From Bacteroidota bacterium (GTDB taxonomy: Bacteria; Bacteroidota; Bacteroidia; Cytophagales; Cyclobacteriaceae): a DNA stretch of 64,000 bases. The DNA is taken from contig JACPVX010000037.1 in NCBI GenBank assembly GCA_016191555.1, forward strand, positions 1 through 64,000. Reading direction: 5' to 3'. The notes below the pieces were generated by a model. That model saw only the letters and a list, made by a program, of their open reading frames with translations. It was not told the origin of the DNA and ran no database searches. Below are positions 1 to 58,389 of this stretch, one piece after another. Numbering within the stretch: position 1 is the stretch's first letter; every line of letters starts with the position of its first letter. The position numbers and the translations under genes were made by a program.

Positions 1-1704
1 AAAGGACAAATCGTAAGAGAGATTGATGCCCTGGGCGGATATTCAGGAATTGTGTCCGACAAATCAATGATTCAGTTTCGAATGCTGAATCTTTCCAAAG
101 GTCCTGCTATGTGGAGCCCACGCACTCAAAACGACCGCATGTTGTTTGCCGAAGAATGGAGACTGGCACTAGAATCAATGCCTAATGTAGATTTCTGGCA
201 AGAGATGGTGAGTGGACTATTGGTAAAAGACAAACGTGTAGTAGGTGTACGAACCGCCTTAGGTATTGAAGTGAAAGCTAAAGCGGTAGTATTAACCAAT
301 GGAACCTTCCTTAATGGAAAGATACACATCGGAGAAAAGAACTTTGGAGGAGGACGAACAGCAGAGAAGGCAGCCACAGGAATAACAGAACAACTAATTG
401 AATTGGGATTTGAGGCAGGTCGAATGAAAACAGGAACTCCACCTCGCATTGACGGCCGATCGCTCAACTATAATCTAATGGAGGAACAGAAAGGGGATGA
501 AGTTCCTGGCAAGTTCTCTTATACCGATACGAAGCCATTAGCACAGCAAAGAAGCTGTTGGATCACCTACACCAACGAGGCTGTCCATAAAGAACTAGAA
601 AAAGGGTTTGATCGCTCTCCCATGTTTCAGGGAAGGATTAAAGGTCTAGGCCCGAGATACTGCCCATCAATAGAAGATAAGATCAACCGATTTGCCGAAA
701 GAGACCGGCATCAGATATTCGTAGAACCTGAAGGATGGAAGACAATTGAAATCTATGTGAATGGATTTTCAACTTCCTTACCAGAAGACATTCAGTACAG
801 CGCGATTACTAAGATACCCGGATTTGAAAATGCCAAGATGTTCAGGCCAGGTTACGCCATTGAATACGATTACTTTCCACCTACCCAGCTAAAAATGAGC
901 TTGGAGACTCAACTTATTGACAATCTGTATTTTGCGGGTCAAATCAATGGCACTACTGGGTATGAGGAAGCGGCTTGTCAGGGATTGATGGCGGGAATCA
1001 ACGCGCACAACAAAGTGCATGAAAAAGAACCCTTGATTCTAAAAAGATCTGAAGCGTACATTGGTGTACTCATCGATGACCTGGTCAACAAAGGCACACA
1101 AGAGCCTTATCGCATGTTCACATCCCGTGCAGAGTACAGAATCTTGTTACGTCAAGACAATGCAGATCTCCGGTTAACCGAAATAGGTCATAAGCTTGGG
1201 CTGGCAACTGATGAACGTTTCCAAACTCTCCAAAAGAAAAAAGAAGCCATTGCTCAACTCACCAAAGAACTGAAAGCACTCAGGGTTGAGCCTGAAGTAG
1301 TGAACAATACACTGGCCGAATTAAGTACAGCCACCATCAGCGAAAAAATGCCGGCCGAGAATCTGCTGAAGCGACCACACATTGGCATGAATGAATTAAA
1401 AAAGATTGATCCAGAAATAGGGAAGGTGCTGGAAAAGTATGAGGAAGAAATTCTTCAGCAAGTAGAGATCATCACCAAGTATGAAAGCTACATTGACCGC
1501 GAACAAAAACTGGCAACAAAAATTGAAGGACTAGAAGATTACAAAATCCGCTCCGACTTTGACTATGATCGTGTAAAAGCGCTTTCATCAGAAGCCAGAG
1601 AAAAGCTGAAGAAAATAAAACCAGAAACAATCGGTCAACTATCACGCATCAGCGGTGTATCGCCAGCTGACGTATCCGTATTGACTGTCTATATGGGAAA
1701 GTAA
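1..1704 (+). CDS. mnmG: tRNA uridine-5-carboxymethylaminomethyl(34) synthesis enzyme MnmG (GidA), 5'-truncated by window edge
   Basis: Frame is open from nt 1 (KGQIVREIDALGGYSGIVSDKSMIQFRMLNLSKGPAMWSPR); MnmG motifs RMKTGTPPRID, GLGPRYCPSIEDK, GQINGTTGYEEAACQGLMAGINA, MFTSRAEYRILLRQDNAD. Confidence 0.97.
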   Translation, partial: KGQIVREIDALGGYSGIVSDKSMIQFRMLNLSKGPAMWSPRTQNDRMLFAEEWRLALESMPNVDFWQEMVSGLLVKDKRVVGVRTALGIEVKAKAVVLTNGTFLNGKIHIGEKNFGGGRTAEKAATGITEQLIELGFEAGRMKTGTPPRIDGRSLNYNLMEEQKGDEVPGKFSYTDTKPLAQQRSCWITYTNEAVHKELEKGFDRSPMFQGRIKGLGPRYCPSIEDKINRFAERDRHQIFVEPEGWKTIEIYVNGFSTSLPEDIQYSAITKIPGFENAKMFRPGYAIEYDYFPPTQLKMSLETQLIDNLYFAGQINGTTGYEEAACQGLMAGINAHNKVHEKEPLILKRSEAYIGVLIDDLVNKGTQEPYRMFTSRAEYRILLRQDNADLRLTEIGHKLGLATDERFQTLQKKKEAIAQLTKELKALRVEPEVVNNTLAELSTATISEKMPAENLLKRPHIGMNELKKIDPEIGKVLEKYEEEILQQVEIITKYESYIDREQKLATKIEGLEDYKIRSDFDYDRVKALSSEAREKLKKIKPETIGQLSRISGVSPADVSVLTVYMGK

Positions 1705-2591
1705 TGAACTTGGAAACTCTCGCACGCTGTCCGCTCTGCCAATCATCTGAATTTACGAATGTGCTTTTGGCCGCAGACTATACCACAACACAAGAAACGT
1801 TTCAGATTCAAAAATGTGTGAACTGCCAATTTGTGTTCACCAACCCGCGACCAGCAGCAAGTGCCATCGGAAAATATTATCAGTCGGATAGCTACATCTC
1901 GCACACAGATGGAGGGAAAGGAATTCTGGATCGGATTTATCTGATGGCAAGAAATTTTACACTGCGGTGGAAAGAACAATTAATTTTTAAACAACAATCA
2001 ACCGGTGAATTGTTAGATGTCGGCTGCGGTACCGGTGAATTCATTAGCCATATGAAAACGGCTGGCTGGCAAGTGACAGGAATGGAACCCACTGAAATTG
2101 CCCGAGAAAAAGCATCCCAAAAAGTAAAAGAGAAAATTTATTCTGACCTAAGTGAAATCCATCAGACATTTGATGTGATCACACTTTGGCATGTACTCGA
2201 ACATGTTCACCAGTTAAATGAAACTGTTGCAAAAATAAAATCGCTGCTCAAGGAGAATGGCACAATTTTTATTGCAGTACCTAATCATGAATCTCCCGAT
2301 GCTAAATTGTATGAACAATATTGGGCAGCTTATGATGTGCCTCGGCATTTGTGGCACTTTTCAAAAACCACCATGCAGCAATTAACGAATCAGCATGGAA
2401 TGAAAATAAAACAAGTCGTACCCATGAAACTAGACGCCTACTACGTCAGTCTCTTAAGCGAGAAGTACAGGCATCCGCAACAGAGTAGCATTACCTCCAT
2501 GATAAAAGCAACACTTCAGGGATTTCAATCGAACCGGAGAGCATCGAAAGAAATAAATCACTCGAGTCTTATTTATATAATTAAGAAATGA
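1704..2591 (+). CDS. class I SAM-dependent methyltransferase (zinc-ribbon-like N-terminus plus UbiG-type fold)
   Basis: N-terminal CPLCQ...CVNCQF; SAM motif LLDVGCGTGEFISHM; DVITLWHVLEHV. ATG overlaps the mnmG stop (TAATG). Confidence 0.85.
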   Translation: MNLETLARCPLCQSSEFTNVLLAADYTTTQETFQIQKCVNCQFVFTNPRPAASAIGKYYQSDSYISHTDGGKGILDRIYLMARNFTLRWKEQLIFKQQSTGELLDVGCGTGEFISHMKTAGWQVTGMEPTEIAREKASQKVKEKIYSDLSEIHQTFDVITLWHVLEHVHQLNETVAKIKSLLKENGTIFIAVPNHESPDAKLYEQYWAAYDVPRHLWHFSKTTMQQLTNQHGMKIKQVVPMKLDAYYVSLLSEKYRHPQQSSITSMIKATLQGFQSNRRASKEINHSSLIYIIKK

Positions 2592-4198
2592 AATACTTCT
2601 GGGCGGCTCTTATTCTGATTACTTTTTCACACTGTGCAAATCAGACATCACCTGGTGGTGGGCCTCAAGACAAGAAGCCGCCAGAATTAGTCTCCTCCAA
2701 TCCTACCAACAATCAAAAAAACTTTACGGGAAAAAACATAGAACTGGTATTTGACGAGTACGTAAAACTAAAAGCACCCGATGAAGAAGTACTGATCAGT
2801 CCATCGATCGGAAAAGAAATAAAGTACACAGCGAAGAAGAATAAAGTCATCATTAGCACCAAGGCAACTTGGAAAGAAAATACCACTTATAGTATTGCCT
2901 TTCGGGAATCTATTCAAGACATTACTGAGAGCAACCCAGCCAACAACTTACGGTTAGCTTTCAGTACCGGACCAACAATTGACTCACTACAAATTAATGG
3001 AAGAGTAACCGAACTCTTCAAAGAAGAAGCTCCCGATAAAATTACAATTGCCCTCTACTCGTCAGATACATTCAACATTTTTAAACACACGCCAACCTAT
3101 TTCACGAGGGCAGGTAAGACGGGAAAATTCTCAATCCAAAATCTCAAACCAGGAGGCTATTATATATATGCCTTTGATGACAAGAACAAAAATCTGATAG
3201 TAGAAAGTAAATCTGAACGATTCGGTTTTAAAAAAGACAAGATCGAAATTCCAAGCAAAGACAGTCTACGCATAGAACTAATGAAAGTAGATGCAAGGCC
3301 TATCAAAGTCACCAGCTTTCGATCGTCAGAAAAAGTAGCTACACTTCGATTGAATAAAGCTGTGACTAGGATAAAAGTAAATCCATATCTACGAAACGAC
3401 TTCATTTACTATTTCGGCACAAAACAGGACGAAGTCATTTTCAGAAACCTAAAAGAAGAAAAGTCGCGAGATTCAATACAACTTGATATTACACTCACCG
3501 ATAGCTTAGACATTCAAAAGGACACTTCTGTCTACTTGAAGTTCAACAATTCTAGAATGTCGAAAGAAAAATTTTCAACCAGTTACGGTTCGCTTCAATT
3601 TGATCAAGAGCAGAAATCTATTTCCCAAACCATTCGATTCAATAAACTCCTATCATCGATCAATTATGATAGCGTTTTCATTCAGGTAGACACGACAACC
3701 TTCCAACCAATTAATAATCAGCACATTACATTTGATACACTCAATCTAACGCTCCACTTATCAACAACTATAGAAAAAGCCCTAGCGGCCACACCACCTA
3801 TTTTAGTATATGGAGTAGGTAGCTTTATATCGATAGAACAAGACTCCTCTAAATCTAAAACAGAAACTGTCCGCATCCTCAAACCTGACCAGGTCGGTTC
3901 GTTAGCAATTAAAGTAGAAACGAAAGAACCGTACTTTTTTATAGAGCTCATCAACAGAGCTAGCAAGGTTGTCTACAAGCTTAACAACATCAAGGAATTC
4001 ACTTTTAAGAATCTTGAACCGGGAGATTATAAACTTAGAATAACGATTGACCCGAATAACAACCACAAATGGGACATCGGTAACTACATCATTCGTAGCG
4101 AGCCAGAACGAATTATATTATTTAAAACATTTGACGGGAAAACCGTAACCCCGGTAAGAGCGAATTGGGAAGTTGGACCGTTGACAATTAAGTTCTAA
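2588..4198 (+). CDS. Ig-like (Big_5-type) domain lipoprotein
   Basis: Lipobox-like FSHCANQTSPGGGPQDKKPPELVSSNPTNNQKNFTGKNIELVFDEYV, typical of Bacteroidota Big_5 lipoproteins. Confidence 0.8.
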   Translation: MKYFWAALILITFSHCANQTSPGGGPQDKKPPELVSSNPTNNQKNFTGKNIELVFDEYVKLKAPDEEVLISPSIGKEIKYTAKKNKVIISTKATWKENTTYSIAFRESIQDITESNPANNLRLAFSTGPTIDSLQINGRVTELFKEEAPDKITIALYSSDTFNIFKHTPTYFTRAGKTGKFSIQNLKPGGYYIYAFDDKNKNLIVESKSERFGFKKDKIEIPSKDSLRIELMKVDARPIKVTSFRSSEKVATLRLNKAVTRIKVNPYLRNDFIYYFGTKQDEVIFRNLKEEKSRDSIQLDITLTDSLDIQKDTSVYLKFNNSRMSKEKFSTSYGSLQFDQEQKSISQTIRFNKLLSSINYDSVFIQVDTTTFQPINNQHITFDTLNLTLHLSTTIEKALAATPPILVYGVGSFISIEQDSSKSKTETVRILKPDQVGSLAIKVETKEPYFFIELINRASKVVYKLNNIKEFTFKNLEPGDYKLRITIDPNNNHKWDIGNYIIRSEPERIILFKTFDGKTVTPVRANWEVGPLTIKF

Positions 4199-4451
4199 AA
4201 CGTGAATACAGTTTGTGGATAAACTATAATCTATTCACAAAATTAAATCCAACACAAAAGACAAATCCAAACATGTGGATAAACATCGATCAAACCACAA
4301 AGCAAACTCACAAGTTACCGTGTGTAATAAGTTATACACAATTCACAAAATAAGATTACCTTATACACTCCAGCTGTCAAAAAGTGATAATTAACCTTAA
4401 AGAATTCCATAAGTTATATACAAAGCCTCGATACAAAGGAGTTATCCACAA
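4199..4451. other. candidate chromosomal replication origin (oriC) with DnaA-box cluster
   Basis: TTATCCACA perfect boxes at 4214-4222(-), 4274-4282(-), 4442-4450(+), plus 4648-4656(+) inside the next CDS; TTATACACA 4332-4340; TTATACACT 4361-4369; TTATATACA 4414-4422. AT-rich, close to mnmG/gidA. Confidence 0.75.
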
Positions 4452-6410
4452 ATGAACACGACTAACTACTACCAATTATATTTTAAAAAAATTTTTTGTA
4501 ATACAATACTAGTATTCATTTGTGCACAGCTTTTTGCGCAAAATCAACAAGAGATACAAATCGCCAACGAATATTTAAATAAGGGCGAAAAGAATAAAGC
4601 GCTAACGGCCTATCAGGCACTTGCCAAAGATTTTCAGAACATTCCGGTTATCCACAACAATTATCTCAACCTGATGCTCGATATGAGTCAGTTTAAGCAG
4701 GCGGAAGACTATGTGGAAAAAATTATTAAAAAAGACGATCGCATTACCTATCGTCTTGACTTGGGCGTGGTGTATGTGCGTGCCGGTGATTTAGCCAAAG
4801 CCGACAAATACCTGAAAAGCATTATAAAAATTCAAATCGAGGATGTTTATAAATCGAAAATTATCGCGGATTACTTAGCCTCGAAAAATTTGGTAGACTA
4901 TGCTGTCTACAGTTTGCAACAAGCCCGAACTGTTACCAACAGCCCAGCTCTTTTTGCGCTTGAGCTCGCCAACTTATATAGAATTCAAGGCAAGCGCACA
5001 GAGATGGTGAATGAGTATCTCGATTATGTAACACAGACTCCCGCGAACAGCGCCTACATAAAAAATTTGATGCAGCTTCTGATTACCAAGCCGGAAGAGC
5101 TGCAGAGCCTCGAACAAATCTTGCTCGAACGAGTGCAGCAGTATCAGCAATCTGAAATTTATGCTGACCTGATTATTTGGGTAAACCTGCAGCAAAAAAA
5201 TTTCTACGGAGCGTTTATCCAGTCTAGGGCCTACGATAAGCGTTTTCGTAAAGAAAATTCGAAAACACTAGAAATCGCCCAAATTGCTCTCAATAATAAA
5301 GACTACAACAATGCCGATAAAGCGTTTTCGTATGTCATCAAGGAATTTGCCAATACCGAAAATTATTTGCCGGCTCAACTAGGCCTCATCCGCACGCGCG
5401 AAGCAAAGGTGAAAAAGTCGTATCCTGTCAATAAGGATTCTGTTCGTTACCTCATTTCGGAATATGACAAGTTTTGTTCGCGTTATCCGGAAAACGCAAA
5501 CGCCTTCGAAGCAAGGTTAAACCAATCTTTGCTCAAGGGTTATTACCTGAACGAACTCGACTCAGCGGTAAAGGATATTTCCAAACTCATTGCCAATCCG
5601 AAAGTATCGATGCTCCTAAAAAATCAGGCGAAAATGGAGTTAGGTGATGTGTACCTGTTGAAAGAAGAACCATGGGAAGCGACACTCCTCTATTCGCAAG
5701 TAGAAAAATCTCAGCGCGAAACGCCTCTCGGTTATGATGCCAAATTGCGCAATGCCAAACTCTCTTATTATAAAGGAGATTTCAAATTGGCGCAAGAGCA
5801 TTTAGATATTTTGAAGCAAGCTACTACCCGTGAGATTGCCAATGACGCCATGGACCTCAGTATGCGCATCAAAGAAAACACCACGTTCGATACCACAGGC
5901 CTTTCATTGAAACAATTTGCGCACATCGAATTGTTGATATATCAAAATAAAATGGATGTTGCTCAAAAGCAGCTTCAAAATTTTGAAAATGGAAAAGTGC
6001 TCGTGAAGCAAGCCGAAGCATTTTTATATGGCTTGATCGATGTGAATACGTTGGTAGAAACAGAAGGTGAATATATCTGGGTGACTCTGCCGCCAGGCAG
6101 AATCAACAAGGAAATTATGGACGACTATTTTTGGCTGCAAGCCAACTTAAACTTGAAACAAGGAAAATTTCAGGAGTCTATATCATTTTTAGAGAAAATC
6201 ATGACGCAGTTTCCGGATGATGTATATGCCGATGATGCCTTTTTTATGCAGGGCGATATCTATGAAACACAGTTGGGTAATAAAGAAAAGGCTAAAGAAA
6301 TTTTCCGTGAGTTTCTCAACAAATTTCCCGGAAGCGTATATGCAGCCGAAGCCCGTAAGCGCTTCCGCTCCTTGCGCGGTGATTTTGCCGAAGAAAAAAT
6401 TGTGAACTAA
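4452..6410 (+). CDS. TPR-repeat secreted/periplasmic protein
   Basis: Signal peptide-like N-terminus, repeated TPR-like helices (e.g. ANEYLNKGEKNKALTAYQALAKDF, DDAFFMQGDIYETQLGNKEKAKEIFREFLNKFPGSVYAAEARKR). Confidence 0.85.
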   Translation: MNTTNYYQLYFKKIFCNTILVFICAQLFAQNQQEIQIANEYLNKGEKNKALTAYQALAKDFQNIPVIHNNYLNLMLDMSQFKQAEDYVEKIIKKDDRITYRLDLGVVYVRAGDLAKADKYLKSIIKIQIEDVYKSKIIADYLASKNLVDYAVYSLQQARTVTNSPALFALELANLYRIQGKRTEMVNEYLDYVTQTPANSAYIKNLMQLLITKPEELQSLEQILLERVQQYQQSEIYADLIIWVNLQQKNFYGAFIQSRAYDKRFRKENSKTLEIAQIALNNKDYNNADKAFSYVIKEFANTENYLPAQLGLIRTREAKVKKSYPVNKDSVRYLISEYDKFCSRYPENANAFEARLNQSLLKGYYLNELDSAVKDISKLIANPKVSMLLKNQAKMELGDVYLLKEEPWEATLLYSQVEKSQRETPLGYDAKLRNAKLSYYKGDFKLAQEHLDILKQATTREIANDAMDLSMRIKENTTFDTTGLSLKQFAHIELLIYQNKMDVAQKQLQNFENGKVLVKQAEAFLYGLIDVNTLVETEGEYIWVTLPPGRINKEIMDDYFWLQANLNLKQGKFQESISFLEKIMTQFPDDVYADDAFFMQGDIYETQLGNKEKAKEIFREFLNKFPGSVYAAEARKRFRSLRGDFAEEKIVN

Positions 6411-15407: not shown

Positions 15408-18400
15408 TTATTTCTGAACAATTAGCTTCAGCGTAGTTAACTTTTGATTGATCACAATTTTCACAATATAAACTCCCCCGGCTAGCCACTGTGTGTTGAT
15501 AACCACCCGAGAGGGTTCGATGGTGTAATTGCAATTCACTTCTTGTCCAACGCTGTTGATGATGGAGAGACCATTGCATTGCGAACCGTTTAAGTTTATG
15601 TAAGCAGAGCCGTTCGTATTTGGATTGGGGAAAATCTTTATCGCATTATTTTCGGAAGCACCTTCTACCGAGCAAGGCTTCGAGTAGGTGGCGGTTCCAT
15701 CAAAGTCCACCTGCTTCAATCGATAATATGCGTATCCGATCGGAGAGAACTTATCTTCAAAAGAGTAATTGGTTTCCAAAATGGTCGTTCCGGCCGACTT
15801 TACTCTTCCAATCGTTTTGAAAGTTTGCGAGTCATCCGATCGCTGCAGTTCAAAGTAATCACTATTTTTTTCAGAGGCTGTTGTCCAGGTCAAAGAAACA
15901 AAGCCGGAGCTAGTAAGGGCGCAATTGAAGCTTGTCAATTCTACCGGTAAAGCATTGCTGAAAGGTGAGGTACTACTCAAAGTAAATGGACCAAAAATGG
16001 ATGTCGGTGCCGAATTGATAATTGTGCCCGAGGCAAAACTTCCTGTTGTGCCTCCGTTTCCCTGGTCGGTCCACTGTGAACCATTCCACGCGGCTACCCG
16101 AAGTCGGCTAAGATTATCGACTACACCGCTGTTGCTTCCCCAACTAAGTGTAACATTTACGCTGGATGTTCCGGATGTTTGGTTGAGCATCCAATATTCG
16201 GCACCGCTTACGTGATCAATAGTACTCGCGCGTGAAGCATTCGGGTACGTTCCATTCGGGTTTACATTAAAATATTGTGCGGTGTAACTGTCCGTTGCTA
16301 CAGCCGGAGCAGAGATAGAAATAGGCCGGTAGAGGTTCGCTCTTCCTAAAGGAAATGTAAAAGCACTGTTTCCAACTTTTGTTACCGGTCCATCTACATA
16401 GCTAGTATTGCTCACACTTGCCACACTTGCACCATTCAGAATTCGCAGTGTAGCATTTTGCGTAACTACTCCGTTAGTGAAGGTCATGGTGCCGCTTATC
16501 TGGTTTATACCAGAGGAGAATGTTACTCCATTTGTTTTGTTGATGATCAAATTATTGAACGATTGTGTTCCGTTGGTTGAGATCGTGCTGTTACTTCCGC
16601 TTCCTACAAAACTGACCGAACCAGCATTGGCTGTAAACGTTCCATTGTTTGTCCAATTACCATTCACATCTAAATTGAACGAGTTAGAGGTAAGACTTGC
16701 GGCAGCGATAGCTGGAGAAGTAATCGTTCCGGTCACGGCAGGAATAGCAGGATTAATTGTAAGACTTCTGGTAACAGCAGCAGTGTTATTAATCACAGGC
16801 ATATTCTGAGGGCCTGCAACCGGAATCAGTGCATCGGTGGTAGACGTGGGAATTCCATTGCACCAATTGCTGGCTGTAAACCAATCGTTGCTGGTTCCTC
16901 CGAGCCACAGTGTTGTTCCTGCCGGTTGGGCGATCAATGTAAATCCAATTGCTAAATAAGAGCCACCCGCTCCTTGTTGCATTTGCAACTCTACGGTTGA
17001 GTTCGAATTGAGAACACCCGTCCATACAGCCGTGTGCGCATCGCAGCAACCTACGTGGCGTGCCACCTCTACTCCATTGATTAACAAATAGAAACTGTCA
17101 TCATGTGCAGGGATATCAATTTGATACATACCGCACGCAAAGCCAGTGCGTTTTGCCGACATGCTTATGTTGGTGGCACTCATAGTACAACCTAGCCACG
17201 CATTACCGTTCGTAGCATTAGCTGTAGATGGCGCAGTGCCGCTAGTCCATCGAGTTGTCGAATTAAAACTGTATCCAGTAGGACCACTTCCATTTTCGGT
17301 ATAGTATCCTTGGTAATTTGTACCAAGAGTCTGAGAGTTAAAGCCGTACACATTCCACGTTCCTGTCGGGAATGTAGTGTAAGCGGGAATTGGAATTACT
17401 GTAATCGTAGAGGTAGCACTGCCAATGGAACAATTATTACTACCAACTACTGTATAGGTAGTAGTGACGGTGGGTGTGGCCACAACAGAAAATCCAGAAG
17501 TTGCACTCAACCCTGTCGATGGACTCCAGGTATAGTTGGCCGCACCGCTTGCTGTTAATGTAATACCGGCAGAAGGACAAGAAGTTGTTACGGCAGCGGG
17601 TGTTACGCTAGTACTAGGCAGCGGGTCTACTGTTAGTGTGAGACTTTTTGTTACTGAGCATCCAGTAAGTGCAGCATCGGTTAACGTATTGGTAACGGTG
17701 TAAGTTGGGCCAACGGTGGCACCGGTTGTCTGTATAAAGGGATTAGAAATAGTTGAGCTTGGCGCAAATGTAACAGTAGGGTCACTCGGACTTACCGACC
17801 AGGAATAAGTTGCTCCGGTAATGGCCGAAGTAGCTGACAACGCTGCATTGGTGCCCGCACAAACGGTAATATTCGAATTGATTGTTTGAGGACGATTGGA
17901 AGATGGAGTTATCGAAACCTGCAAATTTCCGGGTCCGTTATTGTTTACCAATCTGAATTCTACAGTGGAAGTTGGACCCAGAAATCCTGTCCAAATATTA
18001 GATTGAAGAGTAGGTGTGTAGGCATTGTTTTGAAAAACTTGCACCCCATCGATTAGCAGAGTCAAAAAGTCATCTTGAAAAGGAATATCTATTTGATAAT
18101 ATCCACACGTAAAGTTCGTGCGCTTGAAACTGATTGAATAGTTGGTGCTTCCAAAAGAACAACCAACATAACCAGTAGTGGTTGTAGGCCCATTTGAAGA
18201 TCCCCATTTTGTAGTTGTATTAAAGCTAACACCGCTTTCTGTGTAGTAACCGTAATAGTTGCTCAAGGTCGTATTGTTATGGCAGTAAGCATTCCAAACA
18301 CCATTACCAAAATCAGTAGCCGGTACAGGCGTAACCGGAACATTTTGGACCGTCACCGTGGTGTTGATATTGGCTGTTTGACAACCGGTACTGCCTGTAA

Positions 18401-20282
18401 CCGTGTAGGAAGTTGTTGATGACGGATTGGCGATGGCAACTGACTTTTCTGGATTTTGAAAAGTAAGGCCTGTAGTTGGCGACCATGTATAAGTAGCCGC
18501 ACCAGTAACGCTGATAGTAGATGTAGTTATGCCTGAGCAAATTGGCGAAGATACGTTGGTCAATGAGAGTGTTGGGATGGTAGCGGGAGATACAACCGTA
18601 ACAGGAACTGTCTTGGTTAAAGTACAGCCAGTGGTCGCATCGGTACCTGTTGCGGTATATGTGGTTGTCACCGTGGGTGCGGCAACAACACTGGCGCCTA
18701 AACCATCAGATGGTGTAAGCCCTGTAGTAGGTGTCCATGAGTAATTCAGTGAAATAGGCGCAGAAACATTTAGGGTTATGTTCGAGGTTGAGCAGATCGT
18801 TGCCGGATTACTTACAACCAACGGATTGGTTGCAGCACTAAACGTTGCATTCAAACCGGAGCCACCAGCAAATTGAATTAATTGAAATTCTACTGTAGAG
18901 GCTGGCCCTAAAAACCCGGTCCATACATTGGTGTGAGCGTCACAACAACCATTGGTATGCCCGAAGACTAATGTGCCATCGATGAAAAGTCGCAGATAGT
19001 CATCATGTGTGGGCACATCAATTTGATAGTAGCCGCAAGTGAAGTTGGTTCGCTTAAAACTAATTGAAATGTTGCTTGCTCCCACTGGGCATCCGCTATA
19101 GGCAGTACCACTGGAAGTATTGGCAGTGCTGGGAGCGGTGCCACTCGCCCAGCGGTTGGCCGTATTGAAGCTTAAGTTTGTTTCTGTATAAGTTCCTAAA
19201 TAGGTGTTGCTAGAAATAGGGAAAGCGGTTCCAGAATATATATAGTTGTTCCACTCAGTTGTTCCAAAGACACTCGGGTTACCAGAAGAAGCGTTGATGG
19301 TAAGATTCGATCCATTGTTTGCACTGACAATAGACCCATTTGAACTAACCACTCGAATACGATAGCCTGTGCCTGCTGGGGCGTTGCCAATGTTAGCACT
19401 AATAGAACCAGAGTTGGATGCTGTTACTGTGCCAAGATCAGTGGGTGCGGCAAAACTTCCACTGGCATCAGAAAGTTGCGCTGTGAAAATGTTGCTGGCG
19501 GGAGTATTCGGAAAACCGCAACTGTTCTGAACGGTATAGTTCACAGTAAATGCTTGTCCTTGGCAAAAGGATGTTGCTCCCCCAGTGATAGTAGGAGTGT
19601 TGATTCCAAGGGCATTAATCGTCAGAGCCGAGGCATTAGTCGGGCTGTTAATGGCTGGATTGGACGCTGCGATACGGATGCGGTAACCGGATCCGGTTAC
19701 AGTGGAAGTGGGTAGAGTAACAGAGATGCTACCGGAAGTTGTTGAGCTGACAGAACCTATTGTAACGGGGCTTGCAAACGACCCGGCTGAATTGGACAAT
19801 AGTGCAGTGAATGTATTGCCGGAAAGAAAAACACAGCTGTTGGTTAGTGTATAGTTAACGGTAAAAGAAGCACCGGCACAAAAAGTTGTTCCGGTAAAAG
19901 TAGGGGCATTCAATCCAAGCGCATTTATAGTTAGGTTTGTTCCATTGTTAATTCCTGTTACGGCAGGAGTAGAGCTTACGACCCTGATACGATATTGAGT
20001 GCCTCCAGCTTGTGTAGCAGGAATAATGGCTGTAATTGTTCCCGCAGAGGTGGATGTCAGGGTACCGATAGTGGTACGCGTAGTGAAGCTACCAGTAGGA
20101 TCAGAGAGCTCAGCCGTGAAAACGTTTCCGGATGTAAAGCTTCCAGAAATGGTGTATGGAACATTCACCGTTGCCCCTGCACAAAAGGGCGAACCAGAAA
20201 TCGCGGAAGTATTGATACTTTGAGAAAACGAGTTTAAGGCAATAACTAAACTCAAAAGAGCGAGGAGTGGGGAACGAAACAT
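15408..20282 (-). CDS. large secreted T9SS protein (1624 aa) with repeated modules and C-terminal type A sorting domain
   Basis: Signal peptide; repeated Ig-like and ~140-aa modules; C-terminus IKIFPNPNTNGSAYINLNGSQCNGLSIINSVGQEV...GGVYIVKIVINQKLTTLKLIVQK. Confidence 0.95.
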   Translation of the reverse strand: MFRSPLLALLSLVIALNSFSQSINTSAISGSPFCAGATVNVPYTISGSFTSGNVFTAELSDPTGSFTTRTTIGTLTSTSAGTITAIIPATQAGGTQYRIRVVSSTPAVTGINNGTNLTINALGLNAPTFTGTTFCAGASFTVNYTLTNSCVFLSGNTFTALLSNSAGSFASPVTIGSVSSTTSGSISVTLPTSTVTGSGYRIRIAASNPAINSPTNASALTINALGINTPTITGGATSFCQGQAFTVNYTVQNSCGFPNTPASNIFTAQLSDASGSFAAPTDLGTVTASNSGSISANIGNAPAGTGYRIRVVSSNGSIVSANNGSNLTINASSGNPSVFGTTEWNNYIYSGTAFPISSNTYLGTYTETNLSFNTANRWASGTAPSTANTSSGTAYSGCPVGASNISISFKRTNFTCGYYQIDVPTHDDYLRLFIDGTLVFGHTNGCCDAHTNVWTGFLGPASTVEFQLIQFAGGSGLNATFSAATNPLVVSNPATICSTSNITLNVSAPISLNYSWTPTTGLTPSDGLGASVVAAPTVTTTYTATGTDATTGCTLTKTVPVTVVSPATIPTLSLTNVSSPICSGITTSTISVTGAATYTWSPTTGLTFQNPEKSVAIANPSSTTSYTVTGSTGCQTANINTTVTVQNVPVTPVPATDFGNGVWNAYCHNNTTLSNYYGYYTESGVSFNTTTKWGSSNGPTTTTGYVGCSFGSTNYSISFKRTNFTCGYYQIDIPFQDDFLTLLIDGVQVFQNNAYTPTLQSNIWTGFLGPTSTVEFRLVNNNGPGNLQVSITPSSNRPQTINSNITVCAGTNAALSATSAITGATYSWSVSPSDPTVTFAPSSTISNPFIQTTGATVGPTYTVTNTLTDAALTGCSVTKSLTLTVDPLPSTSVTPAAVTTSCPSAGITLTASGAANYTWSPSTGLSATSGFSVVATPTVTTTYTVVGSNNCSIGSATSTITVIPIPAYTTFPTGTWNVYGFNSQTLGTNYQGYYTENGSGPTGYSFNSTTRWTSGTAPSTANATNGNAWLGCTMSATNISMSAKRTGFACGMYQIDIPAHDDSFYLLINGVEVARHVGCCDAHTAVWTGVLNSNSTVELQMQQGAGGSYLAIGFTLIAQPAGTTLWLGGTSNDWFTASNWCNGIPTSTTDALIPVAGPQNMPVINNTAAVTRSLTINPAIPAVTGTITSPAIAAASLTSNSFNLDVNGNWTNNGTFTANAGSVSFVGSGSNSTISTNGTQSFNNLIINKTNGVTFSSGINQISGTMTFTNGVVTQNATLRILNGASVASVSNTSYVDGPVTKVGNSAFTFPLGRANLYRPISISAPAVATDSYTAQYFNVNPNGTYPNASRASTIDHVSGAEYWMLNQTSGTSSVNVTLSWGSNSGVVDNLSRLRVAAWNGSQWTDQGNGGTTGSFASGTIINSAPTSIFGPFTLSSTSPFSNALPVELTSFNCALTSSGFVSLTWTTASEKNSDYFELQRSDDSQTFKTIGRVKSAGTTILETNYSFEDKFSPIGYAYYRLKQVDFDGTATYSKPCSVEGASENNAIKIFPNPNTNGSAYINLNGSQCNGLSIINSVGQEVNCNYTIEPSRVVINTQWLAGGVYIVKIVINQKLTTLKLIVQK

Positions 20283-30534: not shown

Positions 30535-31011
30535 TTAGTTGTTTACTTTTTTAATTAATTCTTCCAGTTGACCTTCAGCGAGTTCGCCTTGAACCAGTTC
30601 GCGCTTTTTGGTTTTTGTATTGATCACTAATGTAGTAGGTAGTGCTCCCGACCAACGTTTATCAATCTTGTCAATCCAAGCATTGGGATCATTTTCGGTC
30701 AGAAATAAAACTTTGGCTTGCAGCTTCTTTCGATTCTGAAAGCGAACTACTTTTTCAACATCCGAGTCGAGATCATAATCCATACTAACCAACAACACTT
30801 GCACATGGGAGTTTTCCTGATGAAGTTTCTCCAAAAGCGGCAGTTCTTTGATACAAGGGGCACACCAGGTTGCCCAAAAGTTTATCACCAGCACTTTATC
30901 GCTAGGTGATTGCAATATTTTTTGCAAATCAGTTAGCTTGATCGATTCAATATCCTGCCCAACTAAAGCAGAAGAAACCAACCAGAATCCAAGCACAAGG
31001 TATTTTCGCAT
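30535..31011 (-). CDS. TlpA-like thioredoxin
   Basis: VLVINFWATWCAPCIKELPLLEKLHQEN. Confidence 0.9.
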   Translation of the reverse strand: MRKYLVLGFWLVSSALVGQDIESIKLTDLQKILQSPSDKVLVINFWATWCAPCIKELPLLEKLHQENSHVQVLLVSMDYDLDSDVEKVVRFQNRKKLQAKVLFLTENDPNAWIDKIDKRWSGALPTTLVINTKTKKRELVQGELAEGQLEELIKKVNN

Positions 31012-31126
31012 AAGCTTTTCTCAGGCTGTAAAAGTAAGGCCGAAATGAATAGGTTGGGTGTAAGTTTTATAAATGGAATTAATCTGATCAGTAACGCATT
31101 AAAAGCAAGGATTTGGAGCAAAAAAG

Positions 31127-31233
31127 TAGTCCACAAAAAAGACTAGTTATCCACATTACCTTACTATTAAGTGATAAACATCTGATTTACAATACTTTAA
31201 ATCGATATTGGTTAATCACTTCTTTGTGGACAA
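31127..31233. other. secondary DnaA-box-like cluster
   Basis: TTATCCACA at 31147-31155(+); TAGTCCACA 31127-31135(+); TTGTCCACA 31225-31233(-). Confidence 0.4.
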
Positions 31234-31377
31234 CTACTGGCGGGAATTTCTCAACCTATTCGTAAATAGATGATTTTCAGCAGCATAGAAATGCTCAACG
31301 ATGACAAATGAATGTAATTTTTTGAGATGGCTTTCAAACAATTGAAAGCATAAAGTGCTGATGGTTCCGGAAAATGA

Positions 31378-31629
31378 TTAGGCTGTTCTAAGTAAGACAG
31401 GCTCTTCCTCAATAGGGTTTTTTACTTCGATCACTTTGGCGCGACCATGTCCGAGCCAGTCGAGATAATCGCGGTAGAGAATACAATCGTTCATCAGCGC
31501 ATCCACCTTCAGGATTTTGATTATTTTTTCGCGATCGAATGAACTCCAAATAGCGGATTTTTGATCTTCGGGAAGAGATGAAATGCGAACAAACTCAATC
31601 CCTTTGTAAACTTCTGATGTAGCTCTCAT
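31378..31629 (-). CDS. hypothetical protein, 83 aa
   Basis: Protein-like ORF in an otherwise empty region; no recognised family. Confidence 0.6.
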   Translation of the reverse strand: MRATSEVYKGIEFVRISSLPEDQKSAIWSSFDREKIIKILKVDALMNDCILYRDYLDWLGHGRAKVIEVKNPIEEEPVLLRTA

Positions 31630-31738
31630 ATGATGTGTGATCGTGGATAGCCGTTAGACTAACTTGGTAACCCATCGTTTAGTGCAAAGTTAAATAAAGA
31701 GTAAGTTTGTTTGACCTTTTTCCAGTTAATAAATCGGT

Positions 31739-32653
31739 ATGCAAAAATTGATTTCCTTAACAATTATTTTCTTTTTGACGCTCACCTATTCATCTTGTCA
31801 AAAGAAACAACCACTCATGGCCGCAAACAGTTCGTTTACCGAAACGGATTCGTTTAAGAGCTATTGGTACAATGGTTTGGCGGAAATAAACTCCTATCAA
31901 CTTTCTCAGTCTCGCTATGGAGAAACGCGCGAAGGTAAGGCAGTACTTATTTTTGTGACGGAAGATTTTTCGGAGAAAAAGCAAGTAAAACTGGATGACC
32001 AACCGGCAGCGGGTGACCATAAAATATCGGTGCTGAAAATGAATTTCACTAAAAACTTTGTCACGGGTATCTATCCCTATTCGATGATGCTTTCGGCTTT
32101 TACTCCGATCAGCAGCAACCAGTATCCCGCAACACTTAAGTTAACCATGTCATCGCAAGAATGGTGTGGACAAGTTTTCACGCAAGTGAATTGGAAAGAC
32201 AAGAAATACGCCATACAATCCAATTCTTATTTTGAGAAAGAAGGGGATGAGCAAAAAACAGTACCGAATGTTTTGTTGGAAGATGAATTGTGGAATCGCA
32301 TTCGGCTTGGCCCGGAGGCATTGCCAACCGGGAAAGTGATTTTGCTACCCGGCCTATTTTACACGAGACTACTTCACACAGAATTGGCGCCCCAAGAAGT
32401 GAACCTAAAAAAAGAAGATTTTGCTGATAGCATACGTTACACAATCCAATTTGAAAAAGCCAAACGAACATTGGCGATCGTGTTTGAAAAAAAGTTTCCG
32501 TTCAAAATTCTTGGCTGGGAAGAGCAATTTACCGAGCGAAGCAAACCCGTCATTACTAGGGCAACCTTGATAAAAACCATTCGTTTGGATTATTGGACAA
32601 AAAATAAAAACGAGTTTAATTACTTACGCGATTCACTTGGGCTTCAACGATAA
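31739..32653 (+). CDS. lipoprotein of unknown function
   Basis: Lipobox TYSSCQKK; FKSYWYNGLAEINSYQLSQSRYGETREGKAVLIFVTEDF, reminiscent of a conserved Bacteroidota family. Confidence 0.75.
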   Translation: MQKLISLTIIFFLTLTYSSCQKKQPLMAANSSFTETDSFKSYWYNGLAEINSYQLSQSRYGETREGKAVLIFVTEDFSEKKQVKLDDQPAAGDHKISVLKMNFTKNFVTGIYPYSMMLSAFTPISSNQYPATLKLTMSSQEWCGQVFTQVNWKDKKYAIQSNSYFEKEGDEQKTVPNVLLEDELWNRIRLGPEALPTGKVILLPGLFYTRLLHTELAPQEVNLKKEDFADSIRYTIQFEKAKRTLAIVFEKKFPFKILGWEEQFTERSKPVITRATLIKTIRLDYWTKNKNEFNYLRDSLGLQR

Positions 32654-55814: not shown

Positions 55815-55957
55815 AAGCGAAGACAACCAAAAAGAAGGAACTGAAAGCTGAGCCGAAGAAAAAAATTCCACCAGCACCTCCAGAGGAAAACGAAAAGCCA
55901 TTTGACTTTGGTGGATTGCCGCAGCGCGATCTAAAAAAGAATTTAGGCTGCGGCTAA
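55796..55957 (+). CDS. small Lys/Glu/Pro-rich protein, 53 aa (below the ORF-track cutoff)
   Basis: MEEGELKAKTTKKKELKAEPKKKIPPAPPEENEKPFDFGGLPQRDLKKNLGCG*; overlaps the GT 3' end by 19 nt. Confidence 0.65.
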   Translation: MEEGELKAKTTKKKELKAEPKKKIPPAPPEENEKPFDFGGLPQRDLKKNLGCG

Positions 55958-58389
55958 ATACTTTCTGCAAAAAACACTCGCTTTACACGCTCGCTCGTGT
56001 TAGTTAGTATTTCGTAAGGAATGGTTTGAATGCGCTGTGCCACTTCTTGTAGCGGCAGATCAGAACCAAATAAAATTACTTCATCGCCTTCTTGCGCATC
56101 GGTGCCGGTGACATCAATCATCGTCATGTCCATGCACACATTGCCAACTACCGGCACTTTTTTTCCACGCACCAAAACCAGCCCCTTTCCCTGACTAAAA
56201 CTGCGACTGAATCCATCGGCATAACCAATGGCAATGGTAGCCATCTTCATTTCTGAGGAGGCTTTTCCTTTTCGGCCATAGCCAATGGTTTCGCCCGCTT
56301 TGATGGTTTTGATTTGTGAGATGATGGTTTTCAACGTGGCCACCGGCACCAGTTGATTGAATTCTTCTTCGGTAGGATTAACACCATATAGCCCAATGCC
56401 CAATCGCACCATGTCCAATTGAAAATCCGGAAAACGTAAAATGCCGGGCGAGTTGAGAATATGCCGCAACGGACTAATGTTCAACGCTTGTGAAAGTCCC
56501 TCGTAAAAGCGTGTAAACTTTTCAAACTGCTCTTTCGAGAAGTTATCGTGAGTAGATTCATCAGCCCCGGCCAAATGTGAAAATACGCTGGCAATTTTTA
56601 GCTGGGGATTAGCGCGCAACAACGAAATGATGGCAGGTAAATCCGACTCATCAAAACCTAACCGATGCATGCCGGTATCTACTTCAATGTGAAGGGCTGC
56701 TTGTTTACCTTCAGTGAAATGACAGAATGCGGTGAGCATCTTTAAATTGTAGATGGCGGGTTCCAGCGAGAAAGCCAGCAACGAATGAAAATTTTCTTCA
56801 GCTGGGTTCATCACCATAATTGGCAACGCGATATTATTTTTTCGTAAGTCTACCCCTTCATCCGTATAGGCTACGCCCAAATAATCGACCTGATGAAACT
56901 GCAAGAGATTAGCCACCTCTTCGCTGCCGCTGCCATAGGCAAATGCCTTCACCATGGCCATCAGCTTTACTCCGGGGCGCAACTGCGATTTGAAATAATT
57001 CAGGTTGTTTACCATTTTATTCAAATCTATTTCCATCACGGTGCCGTGAATTTTCCGCTGCAAGCGACTGACAATCTTTTCAAATTGAAAGGCTCGAGCC
57101 CCTTTTACCAAAATCAATTCATCTTCGAATTGAGTGGTATCCAAACTTTGCAGGAACGCTTCGGTAGAAGGATAAAAATGTCTCTTACCGCCCAGTGAAA
57201 GATGCTTTTGATGTGCGAATAAAACGGGCCCAATCCCGATGAATTGGTAAAGAGGATAGCTCTTCAGTAATATCGAAACCTGATCGATCAATTCATTTTC
57301 GGTCAAGCCGGATTGTAAGATATCCGAAAGGATGACGGTTTTCTTTTTCTTTTGTTGACCGTTCAAAAAATCCAAACTGATTTTTAAACCAGCCAAATCA
57401 TTGTTGTACGTATCATCAATCAATTGGCATCGGTTTACGCCTTGCTTTAATTCTAAGCGCATGGGGATGGCGCGCAATAAATTTACTTTTTGTTGAATGG
57501 CCGGAGCGGCATAGCCGAAATACAATAAAAGACTGATGCAATGAAAACAGTTTTCGACTGAGGCTTTGTCATCAAACGGAACGTTGATTATAAAGGAGAT
57601 TCCTTTATAATGAACAGTATAACCGGAAGAACTCTTTTCAATTTGAATATCGGCCTTTGCGTGAAAACCCCAGCTGATCGATGGAATTCTTTGTTGCTGA
57701 ATATGTTTGGAAACGTCTGTATGATCGGCACAATAAATCAGGGATGAGACATTCTTGAAGAGTTTTAATTTCTCTTGAATCTTCTCGGTTTGATTTACAA
57801 ATCCTTCGTTGTGCGCGGTGCCGATGTTTGTAAAAATGCCAATGTTGGGCTGAATGATTTTTTCCAGTCGCTCCATCTCGCCACGTGTGGAAATGCCCGC
57901 TTCAAAAATTCCTAATTGATGGTGAGGAGCCATGCCCCACACCGACAAAGGCACACCGATTTGAGAATTGTAACTGCCCGGGTTTTTTACAATGCTTCGG
58001 TCGCCCTCTAGCAATTGATACAACCATTCTTTAATAATTGTTTTTCCGTTGCTGCCAGTAATGCCCACCACCGGAATGGAGAATGCTGATCGATGATGTG
58101 CTACAATGCTTTGCAAAGCCGAAAGTGTGGAAGACACTTGGTAGATATTGGCTAATGGAAACTGCGAAACACCTATCGCCTTCTCCACAATAAACTGGCG
58201 AATACCTAAATTGTATAAACTCTGAATGTATTGATGACCATCGTGCCGTTTTCCCGAAAGGGCAAAGAACACGGCCTCATCGGCAACCATCGGCTTTCGA
58301 CTATCGGTAATTAGATACGTGATTTTGCGATCCAACGAAAGCTGAATGACTTTACCGGAAGTGATCGATTCGAGCTGAGAGAATTGCAT
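55954..58389 (-). CDS. bifunctional UDP-N-acetylmuramoyl-tripeptide:D-Ala-D-Ala ligase / alanine racemase (MurF-Alr fusion)
   Basis: MurF: VVGITGSNGKTIIKEWLYQLL; Alr: GTVMEIDLNKMVNNLNYFKSQLRPGVKLMAMVKAFAYGSGSEEVA; GYGRKGKA...VCMDMTMIDVT. Confidence 0.96.
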   Translation of the reverse strand: MQFSQLESITSGKVIQLSLDRKITYLITDSRKPMVADEAVFFALSGKRHDGHQYIQSLYNLGIRQFIVEKAIGVSQFPLANIYQVSSTLSALQSIVAHHRSAFSIPVVGITGSNGKTIIKEWLYQLLEGDRSIVKNPGSYNSQIGVPLSVWGMAPHHQLGIFEAGISTRGEMERLEKIIQPNIGIFTNIGTAHNEGFVNQTEKIQEKLKLFKNVSSLIYCADHTDVSKHIQQQRIPSISWGFHAKADIQIEKSSSGYTVHYKGISFIINVPFDDKASVENCFHCISLLLYFGYAAPAIQQKVNLLRAIPMRLELKQGVNRCQLIDDTYNNDLAGLKISLDFLNGQQKKKKTVILSDILQSGLTENELIDQVSILLKSYPLYQFIGIGPVLFAHQKHLSLGGKRHFYPSTEAFLQSLDTTQFEDELILVKGARAFQFEKIVSRLQRKIHGTVMEIDLNKMVNNLNYFKSQLRPGVKLMAMVKAFAYGSGSEEVANLLQFHQVDYLGVAYTDEGVDLRKNNIALPIMVMNPAEENFHSLLAFSLEPAIYNLKMLTAFCHFTEGKQAALHIEVDTGMHRLGFDESDLPAIISLLRANPQLKIASVFSHLAGADESTHDNFSKEQFEKFTRFYEGLSQALNISPLRHILNSPGILRFPDFQLDMVRLGIGLYGVNPTEEEFNQLVPVATLKTIISQIKTIKAGETIGYGRKGKASSEMKMATIAIGYADGFSRSFSQGKGLVLVRGKKVPVVGNVCMDMTMIDVTGTDAQEGDEVILFGSDLPLQEVAQRIQTIPYEILTNTSERVKRVFFAESI

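Follow-up and report, generated by a model that had tools for sequence, protein, structure and literature searches.

Gene neighbourhood and DnaA boxes

The locus is situated near the left end of the window, i.e. the whole 64-kb stretch of DNA analysed here, which forms the first part of a 180.6-kb contig (C26) of a 4.12-Mb draft genome (77% complete, 91 contigs). The closest relatives with a name are MAGs that carry the labels Flammeovirgaceae, Cyclobacteriaceae and Cytophagales. An intergenic gap of 253 nt (4199 to 4451) separates a gene for a lipoprotein-like protein with Big_5 and DUF2141 domains (2588 to 4198, plus strand) from a gene for a TPR-repeat protein of 652 amino acids (4452 to 6410, plus strand). 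The TPR gene is present in 74 of 78 relatives, and the lipoprotein-like gene is located upstream of it in 47 of 48 loci of the genus. Further to the left, a methyltransferase gene (1704 to 2591) and mnmG/gidA (52 to 1704, plus strand, 5' end cut by the contig start) are found. The sequence-only reading of this DNA had put forward mnmG as a classical neighbour of oriC; the gene is near, at 2.5 kb from the box cluster, but not adjacent, with two genes in between.

The gap harbors two minus-strand DnaA boxes with the sequence TTATCCACA (4214 to 4222 and 4274 to 4282), exactly 60 bp apart, a plus-strand box TTATACACA (4332 to 4340) and a plus-strand box TTATCCACA (4442 to 4450), which points at the putative unwinding site and ends one base before the TPR start codon. 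Another perfect plus-strand match to TTATCCACA is located within the TPR gene (4648 to 4656), so that four perfect boxes and the TTATACACA box are present inside 443 bp. The coordinates of all these sites as given by the sequence-only reading were confirmed, together with the 60-bp distance and the length of the gap. The motif TTATNCACA was counted six times in the window, compared to 2.7 expected, and five of the six copies are within the 443 bp. Throughout the draft genome (4.12 Mb), 37 perfect TTATCCACA boxes were found versus 44 sites for the reversed control pattern; the motif is thus not over-represented overall. Four of the 37 are located here, while no other 500-bp stretch contains even two. 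The C-terminal motif of the DnaA protein is GGRDHSTV, the usual box-recognition signature of DnaA, and TTATCCACA is therefore the expected target.

Three sites that the sequence-only reading had added to the cluster are present as sequences but were rejected, two of them as boxes and the third as a part of the origin. Neither TTATACACT (4361 to 4369) nor TTATATACA (4414 to 4422) is kept by the near relatives, and the match at 4648 encodes V-I-H-N of a conserved protein motif (V/L-I-H-N-N-Y), to which it is probably incidental. No RNA family was found at the site, and the single-strand folding of the region is unremarkable (z -1.75).

The only other perfect box of the window (31147 to 31155) is a single one without a cluster, in an intergenic stretch (31011 to 31739) that also holds one of the least stable DNA sites of the window. 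Two further genes of the window, both on the minus strand, are mentioned here for their products. A 1624-amino-acid protein (15408 to 20282), in which a C-terminal Por secretion sorting tail is the only recognised domain, is likely a type IX secretion substrate, and an 811-amino-acid open reading frame (55954 to 58389) encodes a fusion of a complete alanine racemase and a Mur ligase-like domain.

Conservation of the box cluster in relatives

In the three nearest relatives, whose TPR proteins are 92-94% identical to that of this genome, four or five boxes are located in exact register, and the box at 4332 reads TTATCCACA in all three. Two boxes recur throughout the genus, one on the minus strand near -250 relative to the TPR start (4214 to 4222 in this genome) and one on the plus strand at -10. 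The latter position, 4442 to 4450, is the strongest conserved block of the intergenic region among 45 sequences, and the box at 4332 to 4340 forms a conserved column block in the genus alignment. The box at 4274 to 4282 is retained in L063, L065 and, with one base off, L062; the genus consensus is weak there. A decayed plus-strand position (about 4403 to 4411) was recognized in the genus alignment, where TATCCACAA is conserved and this genome has four mismatches. In addition, a possible weak second plus-strand box may be located at 4450 to 4458 (AAATGAACA here, AAATGCACA in most of the genus); its final three bases, ACA, are invariant.

Within 300 bp upstream of the TPR gene of 44 congeners (the window itself excluded), 29 perfect boxes and 137 boxes with up to one mismatch were counted. 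Dinucleotide shuffles gave 0.4 ± 0.7 and 6.0, respectively, and the reversed pattern 0 and 3. The corresponding counts within 600 bp upstream were 42 and 148 for 26 genomes belonging to other families of this order, versus 0.3 and 6.6 in shuffled sequences, which amounts to a more than 20-fold enrichment over shuffles in both sets. At least three TTATNCACA boxes were present upstream of the TPR gene in 12 of the 26 other-family genomes, the rest having few or none; in the latter, the origin may be located elsewhere. Several congeners have just one perfect or near-perfect box at the locus. On the 9-Mb chromosome of G051, three perfect boxes occur inside a 500-bp stretch at one place only, upstream of the TPR gene. 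The sequence-only reading had looked to conservation of the box layout in relatives; the register is kept in the near relatives, and the excess of boxes holds across the genus and reaches other families.

In 14 of the 26 other-family genomes, mnmG and the TPR gene are no more than about 14 kb apart. In G052, G061, G073 and G077, mnmG is found on another contig and the boxes are clustered at the TPR gene. The TPR gene therefore looks like the better landmark, and mnmG is the less constant neighbour of the box cluster. Because of these clusters and of the 2.5-kb distance in the window, the mnmG argument for oriC is weak when taken alone.

The AT-rich start of the TPR gene

By nearest-neighbour stability, the minimum of the whole window falls at 4475 to 4515 for 40-bp stretches and at 4461 to 4521 for 60-bp stretches, in the TPR gene just past the box at 4442. 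The stretch 4475 to 4515, in the 5' end of the gene, is a probable DNA unwinding element, which the sequence-only reading had overlooked just downstream of the gap. The least stable 40-mer of the locus begins at -1 to +23 relative to the start codon in 42 of the 45 sequences from the genus. Genomes of other families mostly have their least stable stretch ahead of the TPR gene or at some other place, rather than in its first codons.

Along the DNA, the box at 4442 to 4450 is followed by an 11-nt spacer, by CTA-type triplets (4462 to 4474) and then by 4475 to 4515. The plus strand of the triplet run reads CTA-A-CTA-CTA-CCA, and the minus strand 3'-GAT(T)GATGATGGT-5', resembling a DnaA-trio. The basal unwinding criterion calls for a box, a spacer of at most 16 nt and at least three in-phase triplets with the middle A on the strand bound as single-stranded DNA; here, three GAT triplets with a one-base slip were found, the longest in-phase run in the window being two. 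Run lengths in the genus were modestly above those of shuffles for NAN and not above them for strict trios. Since the trio-length test is weak in both respects, the DnaA-trio label for 4462 to 4474 is provisional.

The stretch between box and AT-rich DNA is conserved in the genus, roughly as TTATCCACAAATGCACAnnnCTAAYnAYWAYTA. Coding could explain this conservation, since frame 0 spells codons rich in N and Y. In eight genomes, however, the start of the TPR gene is shifted downstream by 10 or 13 bases into a different frame, and the pattern persists there, A and a pyrimidine being found at 81% and 100%, respectively, of the periodic positions. Several of the eight appear to be close relatives of one another, and they do not count as eight independent cases. 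Conservation of the period-3 pattern also where the reading frame differs supports a trio-like run.

We lean towards the view that the origin of this genus has its melting site in a coding gene, with the start codon between the last box and the triplets and the unwinding element in the first approximately 20 TPR codons, and that the DNA pattern is selected even when the protein is in another frame. Given this overlap, the N-terminus of the TPR protein is probably shaped partly by origin function. If so, expression of the TPR gene would run through a site that must melt, and an envelope-type TPR protein would be linked to initiation. Different start positions and frames of the TPR gene over the same conserved DNA were noted at L058, L218, L224-L228 and L230, and the sequence of the signal-peptide region thus varies freely between species.

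Replichore structure and the proposed origin

GC skew was derived from 60 sampled 20-kb stretches each of two genomes of the same genus assembled as one contig, G023 (4.26 Mb, sampling step 71 kb) and G042 (4.72 Mb), and analysed by two-arc fits. For G023, the GC-skew switch fell 9 kb from the locus, and strand-corrected fourfold sites gave a switch at a distance of 62 kb; both distances lie within the bootstrap spread and are close to the sampling step. The fits for G042 placed the minimum at 2.58-2.66 Mb, 0.7-0.8 Mb off the locus at 3.365 Mb, which is a real discrepancy. Between about 2.3 and 3.6 Mb of G042, both the strand-corrected and the cumulative GC skew remain flat; the flat skew and the displaced minimum may be due to recent inversions or to an assembly error. 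The skew minimum that the sequence-only reading had expected at the locus was recovered in G023 but not in G042, where the symmetry of gene order still centres near the locus.

Chromosomal inversions tend to occur symmetrically around the axis that joins origin and terminus (PMC5850607, PMC9584773). For 45 orthologous blocks sampled in both G042 and G023, the distance from the locus was conserved (rho 0.62). Just 1.2% of all axis pairs match the symmetry obtained with the locus, the best axes lying near 3.45 Mb in G042 and at 2.4-2.8 Mb in G023. Symmetry alone does not separate origin from terminus; the sign of the skew does so in G023. Gene-strand bias was too noisy to place the origin. The dnaA gene, encoded on contig C27 in the genome studied here, is located +1356 kb from the locus in one of the two closed chromosomes (G042, G023) and -1356 kb in the other. 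No box cluster was found around dnaA of the own genome, where the surrounding 4.4 kb contain a single one-mismatch box, and no perfect box is present less than 10 kb away from dnaA in that genome, in G023 or in G043, nor among the matches listed for G042.

The unique box cluster, its conservation and the skew switch of G023 support the oriC reading proposed from the sequence. Together with the instability peak and the symmetry axis shared by two relatives, they point to the locus at 4199 to 4520, i.e. the 253-bp intergenic box cluster plus the first approximately 70 bp of the TPR gene, as the chromosomal replication origin, with a probability of roughly nine in ten. The displaced skew minimum of G042, the single box of several congeners, the lack of a cluster in about half of the other-family genomes and the imperfect triplet run of this genome speak against it. 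A cluster of this kind might instead titrate or reload DnaA, as datA- and DARS-like sites do, which also contain several boxes, or it might control the TPR promoter through DnaA, the true oriC being located elsewhere. Such a role is favoured by the contact between the box at 4442 and the start codon of the TPR gene, and by the displaced skew minimum of G042. However, the cluster is the only one in the genome and coincides with the skew switch in G023, and a titration site requires no unwinding element, whereas a strong instability peak accompanies the last box in 42 of 45 congeners; we regard this explanation as unlikely.

Origins close to dnaA are common in bacteria as a matter of general knowledge, and the cluster could accordingly be secondary to an origin at dnaA. 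This is very improbable given the scarcity of boxes around dnaA, and the 1.36 Mb between dnaA and the skew switch largely refute it for G023. A chance cluster, for which AT-rich intergenic DNA slightly raises the number of expected matches, is refuted for practical purposes by the box counts in congeners set against reversed and shuffled controls, and box positions are moreover conserved between species.

If the locus is oriC, DnaA would bind the boxes at 4214, 4274, 4332 and 4442, and from the last of these a DnaA-ATP filament would extend rightward onto the minus-strand GAT-like triplets at 4462 to 4474. The AT-rich DNA at 4475 to 4515 would then melt and the helicase would be loaded there, with initiation and departure of replication in both directions, the plus strand to the right of the locus being the G-rich (leading) side. 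The two left minus-strand boxes may help to deliver DnaA, like the distal boxes of B. subtilis, which work in either orientation (PMC6669920).

The literature searches found no paper that places the origin of a member of Cytophagales, or of other Bacteroidetes, at this locus; predictions for relatives may already exist in DoriC. The locus would provide a specific, testable origin for a large, apparently mostly uncultured genus of Cytophagales, where dnaA, being 1.36 Mb away in two closed genomes, misleads as a landmark, and the TPR gene is a neighbour by which origins can be located in related drafts. The position of the origin is needed for estimating growth rates from metagenome coverage and for correct rotation of assemblies, while an unwinding element overlapping a coding sequence raises the question of how replication start and transcription share the same DNA.

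The arrangement resembles incC of B. subtilis and its basal unwinding system in the co-oriented box, the 11-nt spacer (published peak 10-13 nt), the opposite-strand GAT-type triplets and the AT-rich DNA (PMC6669920, PMC8287927, PMC10721633), and in having extra boxes further upstream. It differs from incC in that the locus is not beside dnaA, the triplet run is short and interrupted by one base, and a start codon is located between box and triplets, which makes the unwinding site coding DNA. The genus stretch from box to AT-rich DNA was also set beside the difficile unwinding region (PMC7561715). As in E. coli oriC (mnmG-oriC-mioC), mnmG is nearby, dnaA is far away, and several R-type boxes are present with an AT-rich unwinding element on one side; unlike there, mioC is absent, two genes are located between mnmG and the boxes, and the flanks are the lipoprotein-like and TPR genes. 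Putative origins in other Cytophagales families (for example G051, G055, G057, G063, G070, G071, G075 and G077) likewise have box clusters ahead of this TPR gene, and mnmG is often no more than 14 kb away, but their least stable stretch usually precedes the gene start or is located at another place. An unwinding site inside a protein gene, as proposed here, is unusual, yet it fits the ordinary DnaA mechanism.
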